NCBI RefSeq assembly: GCF_003458415.1
Contig: NZ_QRUF01000007.1
Coordinates: 1 to 64,000, forward strand
DNA length: 64,000 nucleotides
Direction: 5' to 3'
Source of the DNA: Collinsella sp. AF25-2LB
GTDB taxonomy: Bacteria > Actinomycetota > Coriobacteriia > Coriobacteriales > Coriobacteriaceae
Shown: positions 2,779 to 61,878 of the stretch, in pieces
Layout: every line of letters begins with the position of its first letter
Numbering within the stretch: the stretch's first letter is position 1
Made by a program: the position numbers and the translations under genes
Notes under the pieces: generated by a model
What the model saw: the letters and a program-made list of their open reading frames with translations, nothing else
What the model was told of the DNA's origin: nothing
Databases searched by the model: none

Positions 2779-5700
2779 ATGGCGGCGCTCGAGTTCAAGT
2801 TCTCATCCGACCAGCAGCACCAGCTGGAGGCCATCGAAGCAACCTGCGACCTGTTCCGCGGACAACAATTTATTGGCAGCGTATTCTCCGCCGATTCCGG
2901 CCGCAAAGGCCAGACGGCAATCGGCGAGCTCATGGTCGGCCACGGCAACGAGCTTCGCGTGGCGCCGGGCCAGCTCCTCGACAACCTGCACGCCGTGCAG
3001 GAGGAGGGCTGCCTCCCGGCAACCGACGTCCTCACCGATGGGCGCCTGCGAGACTTCACCGTCGAGATGGAGACCGGCACCGGCAAGACCTACGTCTACA
3101 TCCGCTCCATCTACGAGCTAAACCGCCGCTACGGCATCACCAAGTTCGTTATCGTCGTGCCGAGCGTGGCCATCCGCGAGGGCGTCCTCAAGAGCCTCCA
3201 GACCACCCGCAGGCACTTCGAGACGCTCTACGACCGCACGCCGCTCGACTACTTCGTGTACGACTCGAAGGACATGGGGCCGGTGGGTAACTTCGCCACG
3301 TCGAGCTCCATCCAGGTCATGGTCATAAACATCGACGCGTTCAACAAGGGCCTCGAGAAGGATGGCACCGCGAAGGAGGGCAACCTCTTCCACCGTCCCA
3401 GCGAGAAGCTCACCGGCGGCTTCAGCCCTCGCGAGCTCGTGAGCGCCTGCAAGCCCGTCGTCATCATCGACGAGCCCCAGAGCGTCGACAACACCAAGCA
3501 GGCCAAGGCCGCCATCAAGAGCCTGAACCCGCTGTTCGTGCTGCGCTACTCGGCCACGCACAAGCAGGCCTACAACATGATCTACCGCCTCACGCCGGTC
3601 GACGCCTTCGAGCGCCACCTGGTGAAGGGCATCTGCGTGGACTCGATCAAGGCCGAGGCGAACCTCAACGGCGCGTACGTGAGGCTCGAGTCCGTCAAGT
3701 CCGACCCGTTCTCCGCCAAGGTGTCCATCGACGTGCGCCAGGCCGACGGCACGCAGAAGCGCAAGGCCGTCACGGTGAAGACCGGCAACGACCTCTACCA
3801 GAAGAGCGGCGAGAACAGCGACTACGAGAGCGGCTGGGTGGTCAACAACATCGGCGCCGCAGTGGGCGACGAGTTCATAGAGTTCCAGAACGGCGAGGTG
3901 CTCGAGCTCGGCGAGGCGCTGGGCGACGTCAACGAGGAGGTCGTCAAGCGCGCGCAGATCCGCCGCACCATCGAGGACCACCTGGCCCGCCAGTTCGAGC
4001 TGTGGCCGCGCGGCGTGAAGGTGCTCTCGCTCTTCTTCATCGACCGCGTCGACCGATACCGCGTCTACGAGCCCGAAGTCCACGGCGGCCTGTACGCCCT
4101 GATGTTTGAGGAGGAGTACGCAGGTGCCCTGAACTCGAAGGCGCCTCGTCGCATCGCAAAGGCGGCGGGGATCGGCAAGGGCACGTGGCTCGAGTGCTAC
4201 GAAGCCGTCGGCGCCCCGCTGGTGCGCGACCCCCACGCCGTGCACCAGGGATACTTCGCCAAGGACAAGAAGGGCAAGTTCAAGGACTCCAAGGGGGCCG
4301 CCGGCACCGCCGACGACGCCGGGGCCTTCGAGCTCATCATGCAGAAGAAGGAGACGCTCATCTCCTTCCCGGATGGCAAGGACGCGGACAAGGACGTCTC
4401 GTTCGTCTTCAGCCACTCCGCGCTCAAGGAGGGCTGGGACAACCCCAACGTGTTCCAGATCTGCACGCTCGTCGAGACCAAGGACAACCTCACCAAGCGC
4501 CAGAAGATCGGCCGCGGCCTGCGCCTGTGCGTGAACCAGGACGGCGAGCGCCTGTACGACCCAGAGGCGAACGTGCTAACCGTCATCGCGAACGAGAGCT
4601 ACGACGACTTCGCCAACGGCCTTCAGAAGGAGCTCGAGGCCGAGGACTTCAGGTTCGGCGTCATCACCCCGGAGAGCTTCACGAAGGTCACGGTCAAGAC
4701 CCCCGAGGGCGTCGAGGAGCGCCTGGGCTACGAGAAGTCCAAGCAGGTCTTCGACCACCTCGTCGCGATCGGCATGGTCGACGGCAAGGGCGCGGTGACG
4801 CCCGAGCTGAAGGCGGCCGCCGAGGAGGGCGAGGTGGAGCTTCCCGCCGAGCTCGAGCCTGCCAAGGAGCAGGTCGAGGCGATCATCATCCACAAGTCCC
4901 AGAGGGTCCAGATTCGCGACAAGGCCAAGGAGGTCTCCGTCGAGCTGCAGAAGGACGTCACGCTCGACCCTGCGTTCCAGGCCCTGTGGGACCGCATCCG
5001 CCAGCGCACGCGCTTCCAGGTGGAGGTCGATTCCGAAAAACTCATCGAGCATGCCACCGAGGCGGTCGATGGCATGCTCGCCGTGCGCCCGCCCCAGGTG
5101 ACGAGCGAACGCGCCTCGTTGGGCATCGACGACGTGGGCGTTAGCGCCGAGGGCACGGGCACCTCCGTGGTTTCCGTTGCCGGCAAAGTGAAATACGATC
5201 TTCCCGACCCGATCGCGGAGCTTCAGGACGCCGTCGGGCTCACCCGCGGCACCATCAAGGCGATCCTCGAGGGCTGCAGCCGCCTCGACGAGTTCGAGGT
5301 CGACCCCGCGACCTTCCTCGCGCAGGTCGGCGACAAGATCAACCGCGTGAAGAACGACCTCATCGCCCAGGGCATCAAGTACGTGCGCCTTCCCGAGGAC
5401 GAGTGGTACACCATGCGCGACCTCGAGCTCGACGACTACACGGCCTATCTCGGGCAGAACGCATGGAAGCCGGATATGGCTGGCAAGAGCCTGTACAACT
5501 ACGTGGTCTACGACTCGGCAGGGGTCGAGCGTTCCTTTGCCGAGGCGCTCGACAAGCAGGAGGAGGTGCTCGTGTTCGCGAAGCTCCCTTCGGCGTTCAA
5601 GATCGACACGCCGCTCGGCAGCTACAACCCCGACTGGGCGTATGTCGAGGAGTCCGACGGCGAGCGCCGCGTGTACTTCGTGACCGAGACCAAGGGCGGA

Positions 5701-22127: not shown

Positions 22128-22199
22128 AGTTGCGGTGGAATAGTTCCTAGAATGGCCAGCTTAAGGGCAAAACAGGAACTATTCCACCGCAACTTTTTT
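22128..22199 (+). terminator. Terminator after the GntR gene
   Basis: A perfect 21-bp stem (22128-22148 with 22174-22194) with a 25-base loop is followed by TTTTTT. It begins nine bases after the GntR stop. The stem is unusually long for a terminator. Confidence 0.8.
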
Positions 22200-32335: not shown

Positions 32336-34423
32336 CTACACGTAGAACAGGATGTCGTCGTAAGTCGGGACCGGCCAGTAGTCGGCGGCCACGATCTCCT
32401 CCATGGCATCCACGGCGGCGCGCAGCGTATCCATAGCGGGGACGACCTCGTGTGCATACACGTTGGCCTGCTCCTGACCATCGAGGCCCTCGGCCTTCTG
32501 ATGCACGGCGTCGAGCGCCTTGATGGAGTCGTTGATGGTGGTGATACCGTTGCAGAGCTTGTTGAGCGTGTTCTGCTCGCACTGCATGGCGGCCTCGGCA
32601 CCGGCGGCACGAATAGTCTCAAGGCCCTTAGCGACCTTGGTGGCATAGGCAGTAATGACCGGGCGATAGGTACGACGCGCCTCGCGAACCATCGTGGTAG
32701 CCTCGATGTTCATGAGCTTGTTGTACTTCTCGAGCTTGCAATCGTAGCGGCACTGGGCCTCGGCCTTGGTCAGGACGCCCGTCTCCTCAAAGAGCGCAAT
32801 GGCCTTATCGGAAACAAAGGCGGGCAGGGCGTCGGCCGTGGTCTTGTTGTTGGCAAGGCCGCGCTTCTCGGCCTCGACGGGCCACTCGTCGGAGTAGCCA
32901 TCGCCGGAGAAGAGGATGCGCTGGTGGTCGGTCAGGACCTTCTTGCAGTACTCGAGCGCGGCGTCCTGGAACTCATCCTCGGGCGTACCCTCAAGCGCGT
33001 CGGCGAAGGACTTGAGCGACTTGGCCACGGCGGCATCGAGCACCAGGTTGGAGTCGGAGACGTTCTGCTCGGAGCCGCAGGCACGGAACTCGAACTTGTT
33101 GCCGGTGAAGGCAAACGGGGAGGTGCGGTTGCGGTCGGTGTTGTCCTGCATCAGCTTGGGCAGGGTATCGGCGCCCAGGTCGAGCACGCCGCGCGTGGCA
33201 TGGACGGAAGCCTTACCATCGATGATCTTCTCGACGACCTCGGTAAGCTGGTCGCCCAGGAAGATGGACATAATCGCCGGAGGAGCCTCGTTGGCGCCCA
33301 GACGATGGTCGTTGCCGGCCGAGGCAACAGAGGCGCGCAGGAGTTCCTGATAGTTATCGACGGCCTCGATCACCGCGGTGAGGAAGACGATGAACTGCAG
33401 GTTGTCGAGCGGGGTGTCGCCCGGATCGAGCAGATTCTCGGACTCGGTGCCAAGCGACCAGTTGTTGTGCTTGCCCGAACCATTGATGCCCTCGAAGGGC
33501 TTCTCGTGCAGCAGGCAGACCAAGTCGTGGCGGGAGGCGATGAGCTTCATCTTCTCCATCATGACCAGATTCTGGTCGATGGCCTCGTTGACCTCGCCAT
33601 AGACCGGTGCGAGCTCATGCTGGCAGGGAGCGACCTCGTTGTGCTTGGTCTTGGCGGGAATACCGAGCGCCCACAGCTCATCGTCCAGGTCCTTCATGTA
33701 GGCCGAGACGGTGGGGCGGATAGCGCCAAAGTAGTGCTCCTCGAGCTCCTGGCCCTTGCATGGAGCAGCACCAAAGAGGGTGCGGCCGGTGATGACCAGG
33801 TCCTTGCGCTTGCGGTAAGCGTCCTTCTTGATCAGGAAGTACTCCTGCTCGTCGCCCACGGAAGGAACGACCTTCTTGGGGGTCTTACCGAACAGCGCCA
33901 AAACGCGCTTAGACTCACGCGAGAGCGCGGTCATGGAACGCAGCAGCGGGGTCTTCTTGTCCAGGGCCTCGCCCGTGTAGGAGCAGAAAGCCGTGGGGAT
34001 GCACAGGACATCGTCCTTGATAAAGGCGGGGCTGGTGGGATCCCAAGCGGTGTAGCCACGGGCCTCGAAGGTGGCGCGCAGGCCGCCGTTGGGGAAGCTG
34101 GAGGCGTCCGGCTCGCCCTGGATGAGGTTCTTGCCCGTAAACTTGGTAATGGCGGTGCCGTCGTGGTTGGGCTCCAGGAAGCTGTCGTGCTTCTCGGAAG
34201 TAATGCCCGAAAGAGGCTGGAACCAATGTGCGTAGTGCGTCGCGCCCTTGGAGATGGCCCAGACCTTCATGGCATGGGCAACGGCGTTGGCCACATCCAG
34301 GTCGAGCGGCTCACCGCCCTCGAGGGTTGCAGCAAGGCGCTTCCAAATGTCCTTGGGGAGGTAGTCCTTCATGACTTCCTCAGAGAACACCATGGTCCCG
34401 AAGCGGTCAGTAAGTTCGGCCAT
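32336..34423 (-). CDS. glnN: Glutamine synthetase type III
   Basis: The 695-residue chain matches the GSIII family, longer than GSI (about 470). It makes glutamine from glutamate, ammonia and ATP. Visible signatures are GDEQEYFLI (metal-binding glutamates), [15 protein letters not shown], and [13 protein letters not shown] (glutamate/ATP site). The C-terminal GSIII-specific helical region runs from about 580. ATG 34423 has AAGGGAG upstream; the frame extends 21 codons further without support. Upstream 34,424-34,849 holds promoters but no riboswitch I recognise. Confidence 0.93.
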
Positions 34424-41341: not shown

Positions 41342-41379
41342 AACGTGCCGCACGCGCCACTTGGCACGTGCGGCACGTT
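41342..41379. terminator. Hairpin between metH and the UPF0210 gene
   Basis: AACGTGCCGCACG pairs perfectly with CGTGCGGCACGTT (13 bp, 12-base loop). No T run follows closely, so it may be a weak terminator or a regulatory site for the gene 46 bp downstream. Confidence 0.55.
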
Positions 41380-41424
41380 AGAATAGAAAAGATTATGCTC
41401 GTTTTGGCAGATAGGAGCGCAAGG

Positions 41425-42789
41425 ATGGCGATCACACCCGCAGAAATCGCGGAAACCCGCGGCATGGTTGAGGAGCAGAACCTCGACATCAGGACCATCA
41501 CCATGGGTGTTTCGCTCATGGGTTGCGGTGACGAGAACCTCGACCGCATGTGCACGAAGATCTACGACCACGTGACGCACACGGCTGAGCATCTGGTCGA
41601 GACCGCCGAGAACCTCGAGCGCGAGTACGGTATCCCCATCGTCAACAAGCGCGTTTCCGTCACCCCGGTGGCGCAGATCGCCGCGTGCTGCAAGGATGAG
41701 GACCTCACCCCCATCGCGCACGCCCTCGACCGCGCGGCTGAGACGCTCGGCATCGATTACCTGGGCGGCTTCTCCGCGCTCGTCCAGAAGGGCATCGGCG
41801 ACGCCGACCGCCGCGTCATCCAGTCCATCCCCCAGGCGCTCGCCACCACCAGCCGCGTCTGCTCCAGCGTCAACGTCGCCAGCCTGCGTGCCGGCATCAA
41901 CATGGACGCTGTGCTCATGGCCGCCCAGACCATCATCGATGCCGCCAAGCTCACGGCCGACCAGGATTCCGTCGGCGCTTCCAAGTTTGTCTGCTTTGCC
42001 AACATGGTCGAGGACTCCCCGTTTATGGCGGGCGCCGTCCACGGCGGTGGCGAGGCCGACGCCGTCATCAACGTAGGCGTCTCGGGCCCCGGCGTTATGG
42101 CCGCAGCCCTGGAGACGCTGCCCGACTCCGCATCGATGATGGAAGTCGCCGAGAAGATTAAGCAGACCGCCTTTAAGATCACCCGCGCCGGCGAGCTCAT
42201 GAGCCGCGAGGCCGCCCATCGCCTGGGTGTCGAGAAGGGCATTGTCGACCTCTCGCTGGCTCCCACGCCTGCCATCGGCGACTCCGTCGCGCGCATCCTC
42301 GAGATCATCGGCGTGGGCACCTGCGGTGGCCCGGGCACGACCTGCGCGCTCGCCATGCTCAACGATGCCGTCAAGAAGGGCGGCGTCATGGCCAGCTCCA
42401 GCGTGGGCGGTCTCTCGGGCGCCTTTATCCCCGTGTCCGAGGACGCCGGCATGATCGCCGCCGTCGAGGCCGGCGCGCTTTCGCTCGAGAAGCTCGAGGC
42501 CATGACCTGCGTGTGCTCCGTTGGCCTGGACATGATCGCCATCCCCGGCGACACCCCGGTCGAGACCATCGCCGGCATCATCGCCGACGAGATGGCCATC
42601 GGCGTCATCAACAACAAGACCACGGCCGTCCGCGTGATCCCCGCCATCGGCAAGGGCGTGGGCGACTGCGTCGAGTATGGCGGCCTGTTTGGCCGTGCGC
42701 CCATCATGCCGGTGAACCCCAACGCCGGCACCGTGCTTGCCCACCGCGGCGGACGCTTCCCGGCACCGCTGAACTCGCTGAAGAACTAG
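41425..42789 (+). CDS. UPF0210 (PFL/DUF711) family protein
   Basis: The 454-residue protein is highly conserved across Gram-positive bacteria, but its function is unknown. Family marks include the N-terminal [14 protein letters not shown], a glycine-rich centre ([36 protein letters not shown]) and the ending [16 protein letters not shown]. It folds like glycyl radical enzymes without their radical motif. ATG 41425 has AGGAG upstream. The ACT-domain partner that usually precedes it is not seen here. Its stop is 17 bases before the structured element at 42,807. Confidence 0.88.
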
Positions 42790-42806: not shown

Positions 42807-42940
42807 GGAGCCCCGGGGAGGGCAAATATATAAGGTCGCCTGCTCGGACAGTCCTGACTCGCACGGAGAGCACATTAAGTGCTCTCCGGCTCGTGCGGAA
42901 CTCGCGATCGACCTTATATATTTGCCCTCCCCGGGGCTCC
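42807..42940 (+). ncRNA. Structured 3'-UTR element, copy 1 (conserved core, variable outer stem)
   Basis: A perfect 32-bp outer stem (42807-42838 with 42909-42940) encloses the strand CGGACAGTCCTGACTC (42845-42860), an inner hairpin (CGGAGAGCAC/GTGCTCTCCG with loop ATTAA, extended by CGCACG/CGTGCG) and the strand TCGTGCGGAACTC (42891-42903). Both strands recur exactly in copy 2 at 58,553, while stems differ. It lies 17 bases after the UPF0210 stop, in the same sense. Confidence 0.7.
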
Positions 42941-58154: not shown

Positions 58155-58277
58155 AAGTTCAACAAAGGTTAACTCTTTGGAAATCTTAAGGTGGGGAACA
58201 GCCGGCTTCTAGCGATCCGCCCGCCGCGATGTACATCCGTAACGCCAAAGAGGGAGCCCTCCCCTCTCCAGCAAATT

Positions 58278-58457
58278 GAAGGTGAATGGTTTTCCGCGAA
58301 GTGAACGAGCAAAATTAGACCCCCGAAACATCCGCATTTTTTCGCAGCAAAACCGCAGGAAACACTCGACAAAACCGCAGGAAACCGAGCCAGAAAAGTG
58401 TTGATGTTTCAGGGGTCCAAAATAGGTCGTTCACTTCGCGGAAAAGTATTCACCTTC
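58278..58457. repeat. 180-bp fold-back element with 54-bp inverted arms
   Basis: Bases 58278-58331 and 58404-58457 are inverted copies with about 85% identity (both contain TTTTCCGCGAAGTGAACGA). The loop holds two direct copies of AAAACCGCAGGAAAC (58349 and 58371). It codes for nothing. It may be a MITE relic or a structured RNA. Confidence 0.7.
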
Positions 58458-58475
58458 GTTTTCTCGTCCACAAAA

Positions 58476-58500: not shown

Positions 58501-58552
58501 TCACCAAATTCCATTCAGCCTACCTGACCCGAACGGCCGAGTCGTCACGGAG

Positions 58553-58680
58553 CCGAGGGGCCGGGCGCAGGGCCTTGCCTCTCAATGAGTTCCGCACGAA
58601 CAGGAGGCGCCAGTGGCGCCTCCGTCGTGAGTCAGGACTGTCCGAAATTGAGAGGCAAGGCCCTGCGCCCGGCCCCTCGG
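58553..58680 (-). ncRNA. Structured 3'-UTR element, copy 2
   Basis: A perfect 34-bp outer stem (58553-58586 with 58647-58680) encloses, on the minus strand, CGGACAGTCCTGACTC, an inner hairpin (CGGAGGCGCC/GGCGCCTCC with loop ACT, extended by CACGA/TCGTG), and TCGTGCGGAACTC. The two strands are identical to copy 1, while stems differ and stay paired. It lies seven bases after the gatB stop, in the same sense. Confidence 0.7.
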
Positions 58681-58687
58681 TTCCCGC

Positions 58688-60364
58688 TTACGAGAGCGAC
58701 GTTCTCAGCAACTCGTTGAAGAGCTTCGGATTGCCCTTGCCGCGGCTCGCCTTCATGCACTGGCCCACCAAAAAGCCGATGACCTTCTGGTTGCCGTCAC
58801 GATACTGCTGCGCCTGATCAGCACAGTTTGCCAGCACCTCGTCCACGATCGGCTGCAACGCGCCGGCATCGCTCACCTGACGCATACCGCGCTCGTCGAC
58901 GATCTTGTTGGGGTCGTCGCCGGTCTGGGCCATGGCCTCAAAGACCTCGTGCGCCTGGTTGGAACTGATGGCATCGGTCGCCAGTAGCTTGGCAAGAGCT
59001 GCCACCTGAGCCGGCGCGATCCCAGACTCGGTCAGCGAGACGCCGGCGCCCTTAAGGTAGGCAATCATCTCGTTCACCAGCAGGTTTGCGACCGTCTGAG
59101 CCTCCTTGCCAGCCATGCCGGCAGCGGCGGCCTCAAAGAACTCGGCAAACTCCGGATCGCCAGCAATCTGCTCGGCGTCGGCCGTCTTAATGCCAAAGTC
59201 GGCCTCAAAACGGGCGCGCTTGGCATCGGGCAGCTCGGGAATCTCGCCACGGCAGCGGTCGATGAACTCGTCGTCCAGATCGAACGGCGCCAGGTCGGGG
59301 TCGGGGAACAGACGATAGTCGTCGGCCGTCTCCTTCACGCGCATGACCACGGTGCGCTTGCGGCTGGGCTCCCAGTGGCGGGTCTCCTGATAGATGATGC
59401 CACCCTCCTCGAGCACCTCGGCCTGGCGGCAGATCTCGTAGGCAAGGCCGTCATGCAGACTCTTAAACGAGTTGAGGTTCTTGAGCTCGGTCTTGGTGCC
59501 CAGCTTGGTCTCGCCGCGACGACGCAGCGACACGTTGCCGTCGCAGCGCATGGAACCCTTCTCCATGGAGCAGTCCGAAATGCCCAGCGTCACAAAGATG
59601 CGACGGAGCTTCTCCATAAACAGGCGCGCTTCCTCAGGCGTACGCAAGTCGGGCTCGGTGACAAGCTCGATCAAAGGCGTGCCGCAGCGGTTGTAGTCGA
59701 CGAGCGACTCGGCCGCGGCGGTAATGCGGCCCTCGGCGCCACCCACGTGGACCATCTTGGCGGCGTCTTCCTCCATGTGGATGCGCAGAATGCGGATAGG
59801 CACCGTGTAGGAACCGTCCTCGCGGCGCTCGGGCATCTGCAGGTTGGACGCGTCGTAGCTGGCCAGATGGCCGGCGCGCTGGTTGCCCTCGCGCATGGTC
59901 ATCGTCATGGACGTGGACAGGCCCTCGGCGTTGGCCGAGGCGCTCGCCAGGCTCTGGGCCTCGGCCTCACCAAACGCGCAGTCGGGGCGCTCGGCGGCAC
60001 CGCGACCGGTCACGTCCAGGTCCAGGTGGCCGTACATGGCAAAGGCGACCGGGCCCTGCGTGGTCTGGAAGTTCTTGGCCATATCGGGATAGAAGTAGTG
60101 CTTGCGGTAGAACATCGAGTGGCGCTGGATCTCGCAGTTGGTGGCGAGGCCGGCCTTGACGATGCTCTCGATGGCGCGCTTGTTGGGCACCGGCAGGGCG
60201 CCGGGCAGGCCCAGGCATACCGGGCACACGTTGGCGTTGGGCTCGTCATCGTGGCTGAGCTTGCAGTTGCAGAACATCTTGGTATCGAGTGCGGTGAGCT
60301 CGGTATGGATCTCCAGGCCGATCACGGCCTCCCAATCCTGCAGGACCTCGGAAAGCTCCTTCAT
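58688..60364 (-). CDS. gatB: Asp-tRNA(Asn)/Glu-tRNA(Gln) amidotransferase subunit B
   Basis: GatB binds misacylated tRNA and joins the kinase step of transamidation. The 558-residue chain has the N-terminal VIGLEIHTEL, the zinc Cys pairs (CNCKL and CPVCLGLPG), and the C-terminal helical/YqeY tail ending VGQCMKASRGKGNP. It is about 70 residues longer than typical GatB; an extra segment lies at about 119-185 (GRGAAERPDCAFGEAEAQ through MPERREDGSY) before RIHMEEDAAK. The frame is intact. It overlaps gatA by one base (TAATG). Confidence 0.95.
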   Translation of the reverse strand: MKELSEVLQDWEAVIGLEIHTELTALDTKMFCNCKLSHDDEPNANVCPVCLGLPGALPVPNKRAIESIVKAGLATNCEIQRHSMFYRKHYFYPDMAKNFQTTQGPVAFAMYGHLDLDVTGRGAAERPDCAFGEAEAQSLASASANAEGLSTSMTMTMREGNQRAGHLASYDASNLQMPERREDGSYTVPIRILRIHMEEDAAKMVHVGGAEGRITAAAESLVDYNRCGTPLIELVTEPDLRTPEEARLFMEKLRRIFVTLGISDCSMEKGSMRCDGNVSLRRRGETKLGTKTELKNLNSFKSLHDGLAYEICRQAEVLEEGGIIYQETRHWEPSRKRTVVMRVKETADDYRLFPDPDLAPFDLDDEFIDRCRGEIPELPDAKRARFEADFGIKTADAEQIAGDPEFAEFFEAAAAGMAGKEAQTVANLLVNEMIAYLKGAGVSLTESGIAPAQVAALAKLLATDAISSNQAHEVFEAMAQTGDDPNKIVDERGMRQVSDAGALQPIVDEVLANCADQAQQYRDGNQKVIGFLVGQCMKASRGKGNPKLFNELLRTSLS

Positions 60365-61878
60365 TACAGCTCGCCTCCCTTCCCGGCAAAATCGGGCGCG
60401 ACGGAAAGCGCGGGCGCACCCGTAGCGGTATCGGCAAAGCTGCGCTCCAGGGCGCGGGCAAACGTGAGCAGCTGACGGTCCTTAAAGGCAGGTCCCACCA
60501 GCTGGGCAGAAACGGGCAGTTGAGTATCCTCGCCCAGACCCAGCGGCACCGAGATGCCACCGTTGCCGCAAATGTTGAGCGAAATGGTGTACAGGTCGGA
60601 GAGGTACATCTGCGTGGGGTCGCTAATCTCGCCAAACTTAAAGGCCGTGCGCGGCGAGGCGGGCATGAGGATGGTGTCCACCTTGGCATACGCGGCGTCG
60701 TAGTCCTGCGTGATGAGCGTGCGGGCCTTTTGCGCAGCGTAGTAGTACTTGTCGTACACGCCCGAGCTCAGCAGGTAGGCGCCGAGCATCTGACGGCGCT
60801 TGGCCTCGGCACCAAAGCCGTGGGCGCGCGACAGCGAGCTCTGGTCGGACAGGTTGGCGCAGCCCTCCTCCTGGTAGCCGTAGCGAATGCCGTCGAAGCG
60901 GGCCAGGTTGGAGAACGCCTCGGCCGGGCCGATGACGTAGTAAGCGGCGATGGCGGCGTCCAGGTGCGGCAGGTCGACCTCGACCAGCTCGGCGCCCTGG
61001 TTCTGCAGCTCCTGGGCGGCGCGCTGAACAGCGGCCTTGACCTCGGGCGTCAGGCCCTCGGCCTCCATAAACGAGGGGATGATGCCCACGCGCTTGCCCT
61101 CGATGCTGTCGTTGAGATGCTCGGTAAAGTCGACGGCGCAGTCCTGGCTGGTGCAGTCGTACGGATCGTGGCCCGCGCCGGTAAGCGCGTTCATGGCCAG
61201 CGCGACATCCTCGACCGTGCGGCCAAAGGGTCCCACCTGGTCGAGCGACGAGCCAAAGGCAACCACGCCGTAACGGCTCACGGCGCCATACGTGGGCTTA
61301 AAGCCCACCACGCCGCACAGCGACGCCGGCTGGCGAATGGAGCCGCCGGTGTCCGAGCCCAGCGAGAGCGCGACCTCGCCCGCGGCGACGGCGGCAGCGG
61401 AGCCGCCCGAAGAGCCGCCGGGCACGCGCTCGGTATCCCAGGGGTTGTTGGTGCGGTGGAACGCCGAGCTCTCGGTAGAGCTACCAAAGGCAAACTCGTC
61501 CATGTTGGCCTTGCCCATGGGCAGGCAGCCGGCATCGAGCATGCGCTGGACGCAGGTAGCGGTGTAGACGCTCTGGTAGTTCTCGAGCATGCGGGAAGCG
61601 CAGGTGGTGCACGTGCCCACGAGGTTCATGTTGTCCTTGATGGCCAGCGGCACGCCCGCAAGCGGGGGCAGCGGCTTGCCTGCGGCACGGTCAGCATCCA
61701 CGCGCGCAGCGGCCTCGAGCGCAAGCTCGGGCGCCACCTGCAGGAATGCCTGGACCCCGCCCTCGCGCGCCTCGATGGCGGCAAGGGAGGCCTGGGCCAC
61801 CTCGGTAGCGGTAAAGTCGCCGGCGGCAACGCCCGCGGCGATCTGGGCGGCGGTAAGGGAATCGAAGCTTAGCGCCAT
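60364..61878 (-). CDS. gatA: Asp-tRNA(Asn)/Glu-tRNA(Gln) amidotransferase subunit A
   Basis: GatA releases ammonia from glutamine for GatB. The 504-residue amidase shows the Ser-cisSer-Lys site: VPLAIKDN (Lys), the PGGSSGGSAAAVA loop, and SLGSDTGGSIRQPAS (nucleophile region). Start and stop overlap gatC and gatB (TAATG each), so all three subunits are made together. Confidence 0.97.
   Translation of the reverse strand: MALSFDSLTAAQIAAGVAAGDFTATEVAQASLAAIEAREGGVQAFLQVAPELALEAAARVDADRAAGKPLPPLAGVPLAIKDNMNLVGTCTTCASRMLENYQSVYTATCVQRMLDAGCLPMGKANMDEFAFGSSTESSAFHRTNNPWDTERVPGGSSGGSAAAVAAGEVALSLGSDTGGSIRQPASLCGVVGFKPTYGAVSRYGVVAFGSSLDQVGPFGRTVEDVALAMNALTGAGHDPYDCTSQDCAVDFTEHLNDSIEGKRVGIIPSFMEAEGLTPEVKAAVQRAAQELQNQGAELVEVDLPHLDAAIAAYYVIGPAEAFSNLARFDGIRYGYQEEGCANLSDQSSLSRAHGFGAEAKRRQMLGAYLLSSGVYDKYYYAAQKARTLITQDYDAAYAKVDTILMPASPRTAFKFGEISDPTQMYLSDLYTISLNICGNGGISVPLGLGEDTQLPVSAQLVGPAFKDRQLLTFARALERSFADTATGAPALSVAPDFAGKGGEL

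Follow-up and report, generated by a model that had tools for sequence, protein, structure and literature searches.

Two copies of a conserved, strongly paired element lie behind the stop codons of genes in the window analysed here, a stretch of 64,000 nucleotides from Collinsella sp. AF25-2LB (contig NZ_QRUF01000007.1), and they raise the question of whether such a plan, with fixed strands at the centre and freely varying but paired arms outside, belongs to an RNA acting at the 3' end of transcripts or to a DNA element that has spread among genes. The original prediction, made from the letters of this stretch, offered both answers: a new 3'-UTR RNA, with the covarying outer stem taken as a sign of RNA function, or a mobile core that either lands in long palindromes or produces them.

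Results

Anatomy of the two copies in the window

Both copies were found where they had been predicted, one on each strand, with the two conserved strands exact, and the lengths of the outer stems, the perfection of their pairing and the distances to the stop codons in the sense of the host gene all agree with the first description (Table 1). The outer arms of the two copies are unrelated in sequence, and each copy folds far more stably than its dinucleotide shuffles (z −11.34 for each). Either conserved strand alone is weak evidence of a copy, given that, with mismatches allowed, shuffled versions of the window matched as often as the window itself in 9 of 100 cases for strand 1 and in 50 of 100 for strand 2.

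Table 1. Coordinates of the elements and their host genes within the window
Feature	Position	Strand	Remarks
Copy 1, left (5') outer arm	42807..42838	+	32 nt; starts 17 nt behind the DUF711/UPF0210 stop codon
Copy 1, conserved core	42842..42905	+	match to model R1, 78.6 bits
Copy 1, conserved strand 1	42845..42860	+	CGGACAGTCCTGACTC, exact match
Copy 1, inner hairpin	42865..42887	+	9-bp stem, 5-nt loop
Copy 1, conserved strand 2	42891..42903	+	TCGTGCGGAACTC, exact match
Copy 1, right (3') outer arm	42909..42940	+	100% complementary to 42807-42838
Copy 2, left (5') outer arm, in gatB sense	58647..58684	-	38 nt; perfect part begins 7 nt behind the stop codon
Copy 2, conserved core	58585..58647	-	match to model R1, 80.3 bits
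Copy 2, conserved strand 1	58629..58644	-	exact match
Copy 2, inner hairpin	58603..58623	-	9-bp stem, 3-nt loop
Copy 2, conserved strand 2	58587..58599	-	exact match
Copy 2, right (3') outer arm	58549..58586	-	38 nt, 97% complementary to 58647-58684; 34 bp perfect
Host gene of copy 1, outside the element	41368..42789	+	Pfam DUF711 (UPF0210)
Host gene of copy 2 (gatB), outside the element	58688..60364	-	Pfam GatB_N + GatB_Yqey

The prediction that each copy precedes a probable terminator holds for copy 2, where a hairpin and a T run follow about 50 nt past the right arm; for copy 1, by eye, a terminator-like hairpin appears only about 120 nt downstream. Judged by eye, neither copy has a T run directly behind its stem, as an intrinsic terminator would. 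A pattern match suggesting a third core at 34361 was rejected as false, this stretch being conserved with a genome that has no core there and being missed by the covariance model described below.

Other inverted repeats occur in the window. Behind the terminator-like hairpin of copy 2, in the gap between gatB and the next gene, lies a 69-nt imperfect inverted repeat (58273-58341 with 58394-58462, 81%), perhaps of another repeat family; two perfect 21-nt inverted repeats, one spacerless and one with a 25-nt spacer, lie at 199-240 and 22128-22194 and showed no relation to the core in pattern searches.

A dispersed family centred on Collinsella

The plan common to the family is an asymmetric core of about 62 nt, with CAGTCCTG on its 5' side and TGCGGAACTC on its 3' side around a small hairpin, embedded in long palindromic arms that are paired almost perfectly and vary in sequence among sites. 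Within the core, AGTCCTG is able to pair with CGGAACT around a C.A mismatch, and this helix shows no covariation. By eye, three alternative linker modules occur between the conserved strands, combined with varied inner hairpins, and the part of the outer stem that adjoins the core is semi-conserved.

The search for the two strands that the original prediction had proposed returned, with the exact pattern, 37 stretches of genome contigs (35 titled Collinsella, two Eggerthellaceae/Rubneribacter); the pattern occurs in 21 of the 43 genomes of the genus and its reverse in none of the 43. The covariance model that it had also called for (R1, built from 11 sequences with 15 pairs) finds matches in 40 of these 43 genomes at E<=0.01, with 22-32 matches per genome in 21 close genomes, 14 in one that is 72% complete and 0-36 in the remaining 21; one complete genome holds 32 at E<=0.1. 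Across the class, in a survey that scored 13 candidates per genome, R1 matched in 159 of 396 genomes, spread over 46 of the 153 genera, and copies in other genera and families follow the same plan. In a sample of the phylum, matches at E<=1e-4 were obtained in 22 of 396 genomes, all 22 belonging to the order of the window or nearer, kinship being stated relative to the nearest genome in the collection. Eleven genomes from other orders within the class, G075 and G138 among them, gave single weak matches (E 6e-7 to 4e-3), which could be remote relatives or chance.

In viral contigs, nine matches to strand 1 included none with an exact strand 2, and one match to both strands lies inside a frame that looks by eye like a terminase; all of these were taken as chance. 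Phages gave no match. The only matching plasmid record is a 900-kb replicon of Collinsella aerofaciens, with matches at the same coordinates as one contig (C6) of genome G008.

As predicted, no named RNA accounts for the element: in a scan of the whole window no Rfam 15 family reached its gathering score in the element, and the sub-threshold matches to the element were nearly all to miRNA precursors, because a perfect hairpin draws them. The open-licence literature searched gave no published description of the family; in excerpts of one paper, the single mention of Collinsella concerns another RNA, which lies ahead of a gene for a ribosomal protein (PMC8040213).

Placement and orientation

Placement relative to stop codons, the check originally suggested, was assessed in 73 sites, one copy each; the gene ends were called by a simple model of codon use for which the window served as training set. 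A gene boundary lies within 80 nt of the core on the 5' side at 38 of the 73 sites and on the 3' side at four, where it is an opposite-strand stop; the 5'-side boundaries comprise 31 same-strand stops and eight opposite-strand starts, one site having both. At <=150 nt the counts are 47 and 14, and in a smaller set of 43 sites there were 21 same-strand stops against one opposite-strand stop. Given this regularity of placement behind stop codons, selection acting on the transcript has to be considered as an alternative to an insertion preference.

All orthologous copies listed behind DUF711 and gatB have a single orientation, which argues against an inverton; at another place the element is reversed between two genomes (L290 and L291). 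Most copies, among the matches listed, are singletons. Among the same matches, close pairs (<400 bp) are tail-to-tail at nine places (four in G003, two in G028 and one each in G016, G038 and G088) and head-to-tail at two (in G077 and G088).

The arms are paired but private

Neither an absence of further copies nor a random orientation with unpaired arms, the outcomes that had been named as speaking against the prediction, was found; orientation is polar, and an outer stem score of >=15 was reached by 93 of 107 distinct copies, as compared with 9 of 529 combinations in which arms were swapped between copies. At the same time, the arms are specific to their sites: of 4,576 16-mers taken from the outer arms, none is common to any two of 43 sites. 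Stems of 36-49 perfect pairs exist, 49 being the longest.

Where pairing is kept on the sense transcript, G.U is expected to outnumber A.C among stem mismatches. The outer stems show the opposite. When each site was counted once (87 site clusters and 77 stems per draw, 178 copies having been kept and 34 weak ones dropped), A.C came to 57.7 and G.U to 24.5 in 2,129 positions, and 26 of the 77 stems were perfect. The excess of A.C is present in 41 sites just behind a stop codon (23.5 versus 12.6), in 10 sites before an opposite-strand start (8.6 versus 3.2) and in sites elsewhere (26.2 versus 10.1), and a smaller one-copy-per-site set of 44 clusters points in the same direction (25.4 versus 9.3). 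Since all three placement classes agree, the bias follows the element's own strand and not the host gene. An A.C excess on one strand is a G.U excess on the other, and hence the bias may also reflect a transcript of the opposite strand.

The inner hairpin is perfect in 81 of 87 sites, and its mismatches lean to G.U (4.7 versus 1.3 for A.C), the numbers being too small to judge. Six of its nine pairs have changed on both sides, with a covariation score of 0.347 versus 0.144 for shuffles.

Arms change en bloc at the pnp-rnj junction

Several arm versions occur at the junction between pnp and rnj, of which 30 of 42 matched loci were read and whose genes were named from an annotated record of the same replicon. 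In 21 close genomes, one (G002) is empty at this site and 15 have two tail-to-tail elements; the five others are covered in part, with the end of the second element visible. In nine more distant genomes there is no element within the 260 nt examined.

The outer junctions are constant across versions. Between them, two unrelated arm versions were seen for element 1 and three for element 2; one of the three comes in two related forms, in which the changes in one arm are matched by changes in the other. The versions are mostly near-perfectly paired, and both arms differ en bloc among sister genomes. Three genomes carry hybrids (L308, L312 and L324) with one arm from each version; in L312 the inner hairpin is itself a hybrid, and therefore the exchange lay in the core.

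In the filled site CCGGCGGG stands on both sides of the insert as an 8-bp direct repeat; such a repeat was seen at pnp-rnj only, and no general target-site duplication was established. The right arm of element 1 carries, inverted, 23 nt of the host flank, some of them from the terminator behind pnp. The element lies behind this terminator and not inside it; in the empty site the same terminator is present with no inverted copy. G002, one genome of 21, could have kept the site as it was before insertion or could have lost the insert by deletion between the two 8-bp repeats. Under either origin, host flank is copied across the core here.

Changed arms at other sites

Of the 30 loci read behind gatB, 22 have the core (in one of these a contig end truncates it, and in another its right side is replaced), with outer arms in at least four versions. 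Behind DUF711 it was present in 26 of 30 loci read, and the close genomes have two arm versions and a hybrid (L048/L178); a further hybrid was found in L026/L051. Two close genomes (L191 and L288) have different arms at the same place, with one core shortened. Three more sites (13, 15 and 26) show possible empty or broken states whose direction is unpolarised, and an interior shared between sites, beyond the mates of one pair, was seen in two cases only.

Several side observations touch these loci. In two genomes of other genera (L024 and L175) a copy lies between gatA and gatB, which overlap in Collinsella (window 60340-60370); in Collinsella a copy follows gatB of this same operon. A 44-47-nt sequence, TGCCAAAAAGGGACAGGTTTATTTTGGTCGGTTTTATCTGGGG, possibly another repeat, stands beside elements at two sites and inside a coreless site (L190, L302, L202, L298, L324 and L336). 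In G025 about 1.7 kb of other DNA (L305, approximately 3185-4887), perhaps an insertion sequence, interrupts one palindrome arm.

Discussion

Taken together, these results fit a DNA palindrome that is mobile, or once was, better than an RNA maintained for its base pairing. Considering that the outer-stem mismatches are of the A.C type and that the arms change en bloc among sister genomes, outer-stem covariation, part of what the original prediction had taken as the sign of a functional RNA, is no evidence of RNA pairing here. Of its two proposals, the mobile core is better supported than the 3'-UTR RNA: copy numbers, the empty site, the arm swaps, the flip and the mirrored host flank all speak for it; no enzyme that would move it was found, which speaks against it. 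From the 3'-UTR proposal, the novelty of the family and the stop-codon rule stand. We think it fairly likely that copies 1 and 2 are members of a dispersed non-coding DNA repeat family of Coriobacteriia that is mobile or was formerly mobile.

An RNA role nevertheless has to be weighed. Such a cis-acting RNA would carry a motif for binding protein or RNA in an internal loop on a long 3'-UTR stem that stabilizes or ends the upstream mRNA, and copies would have spread and been retained by selection behind stops. The asymmetry of same-strand stops, the near-invariance of the core strands, the covariation of the inner hairpin and the G.U leaning of its few mismatches speak for this, and polar placement with a fixed core makes some role in RNA possible, as far as sequence can tell. 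However, the A.C excess persists in the outer stems even behind stops, the AGTCCTG/CGGAACT helix does not covary, arms are exchanged as blocks while hybrid and unpaired arms persist, eight of the 73 sites have on the 5' side an opposite-strand start in place of a stop, and copy numbers range from 0 to 36 within one genus. We therefore regard the cis-acting RNA as rather unlikely.

Alternatively, the core may insert into the loop of pre-existing hairpins, such as terminators, in which case the outer arms would be the former stem and no flank need be copied. One observation fits: the 3' end of gatB in G014 (L129), which lacks the core, has a simple hairpin similar to the outermost stretch of one of the filled versions. 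This account, however, leaves unexplained how stems reach 36-49 perfect pairs, why host flank is mirrored at pnp-rnj (where the element is behind the terminator) and how both arms change at constant outer junctions, and we consider it quite improbable.

A REPIN-like element moved by a RAYT/Y1 transposase is largely refuted: it is suggested by the predominance, among the matches listed, of tail-to-tail pairs (nine places in five genomes versus two head-to-tail) and by the co-occurrence of RAYT and R1 in 396 genomes (106 with both, 53 with R1 only, 84 with RAYT only and 153 with neither; Fisher p 1e-9, relatedness ignored), but a RAYT match (E<=0.001) is absent from 24 of the 62 genomes with >=10 R1 matches, so that RAYT is rejected as a required partner, no R1 match was found in 17 stretches (4.9-6 kb) around genes of the Y1 family, and one RAYT gene is flanked by other palindromes. 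The latter, a RAYT-like gene in G028 (L233; NF047646, 56 bits, cut-off 80), has perfect palindromes of its own of 20 nt and 18 nt, at 2227-2267 and 3080-3116, probably a REP pair of another family.

Returning to the DNA palindrome, we suggest with moderate confidence that its spread to gene ends, together with template switching that rewrites its arms and recombination in its core, accounts for the observations jointly. The core would be the recognition site of a putative DNA-acting protein that spread it to gene ends, and the arms would be made and kept perfect at the level of DNA. When replication meets the hairpin, the new strand may switch to the opposite arm, by which mismatches would be erased, and the same switch could bring a copy of host flank to the other side of the core. 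Where two versions recombine inside the identical core, hybrids would result that are later re-corrected. An effect on mRNA 3' ends, if any, would be secondary. Excerpts of the literature on template switching (PMC8794818, PMC7202029) describe stems kept perfect by the copying of one arm from the other, with inversions of the loop, and the first of these has the process creating perfect stems as well; there it is a mutation process, whereas in the present family its substrate would be a dispersed repeat whose core is fixed.

It is also conceivable, although doubtful, that only the core of about 62 nt is inherited, that each insertion writes its palindrome from inverted host flank and that both arms are then rewritten jointly, which would leave every copy with a near-perfect hairpin of its own, with a putative Coriobacteriia protein recognizing the core hairpin. 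No mobilizing enzyme was found: an autonomous copy was sought between copies 2.2 kb apart, where a gene pair is AbiE-like by eye, and in six further stretches no transposase was recognized by eye.

The family resembles several known systems and differs from each. Integron attC sites are similar in that a single strand folds, few of its bases are conserved and its stem is variable. In attC, however, the conserved boxes are outermost and the tip is variable, the reverse of the layout seen here, and attC was set aside on anatomy. Likewise, the ends of Correia elements, ERIC and RUP are conserved, in contrast to the variable ends of this family, and the conserved terminal inverted repeats of a MITE or an insertion sequence are absent, the arms being paired but private to each site. 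The structured RNAs of Rfam 15 share the combination of conserved strands and covarying stems; none of them matched at its gathering score. Miniature insertion sequences of bacteria, Correia elements, ERIC and RUP among them, are in excerpts of PMC2229807 likewise short, non-coding and dispersed between genes. REPs and REPINs, in excerpts of PMC3116915 and PMC3733652, are extragenic, dispersed, non-coding palindromic repeats that occur as inverted pairs and singletons, and to that extent they are similar; there the palindrome itself is conserved, whereas here the centre is conserved and the arms are private, the stems are far longer than those of REPs, and no link to RAYT was found.

Finally, the usual plan of a bacterial repeat is turned inside out in this family, in which the palindrome is free and the centre fixed. 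The series of arm versions and hybrids at single junctions offers a view of how long perfect inverted repeats arise and persist in bacteria, and it indicates that stem covariation, a standard sign of a functional RNA, can arise at the level of DNA. For the Coriobacteriia of the human gut, the family points to a putative factor that binds its core.
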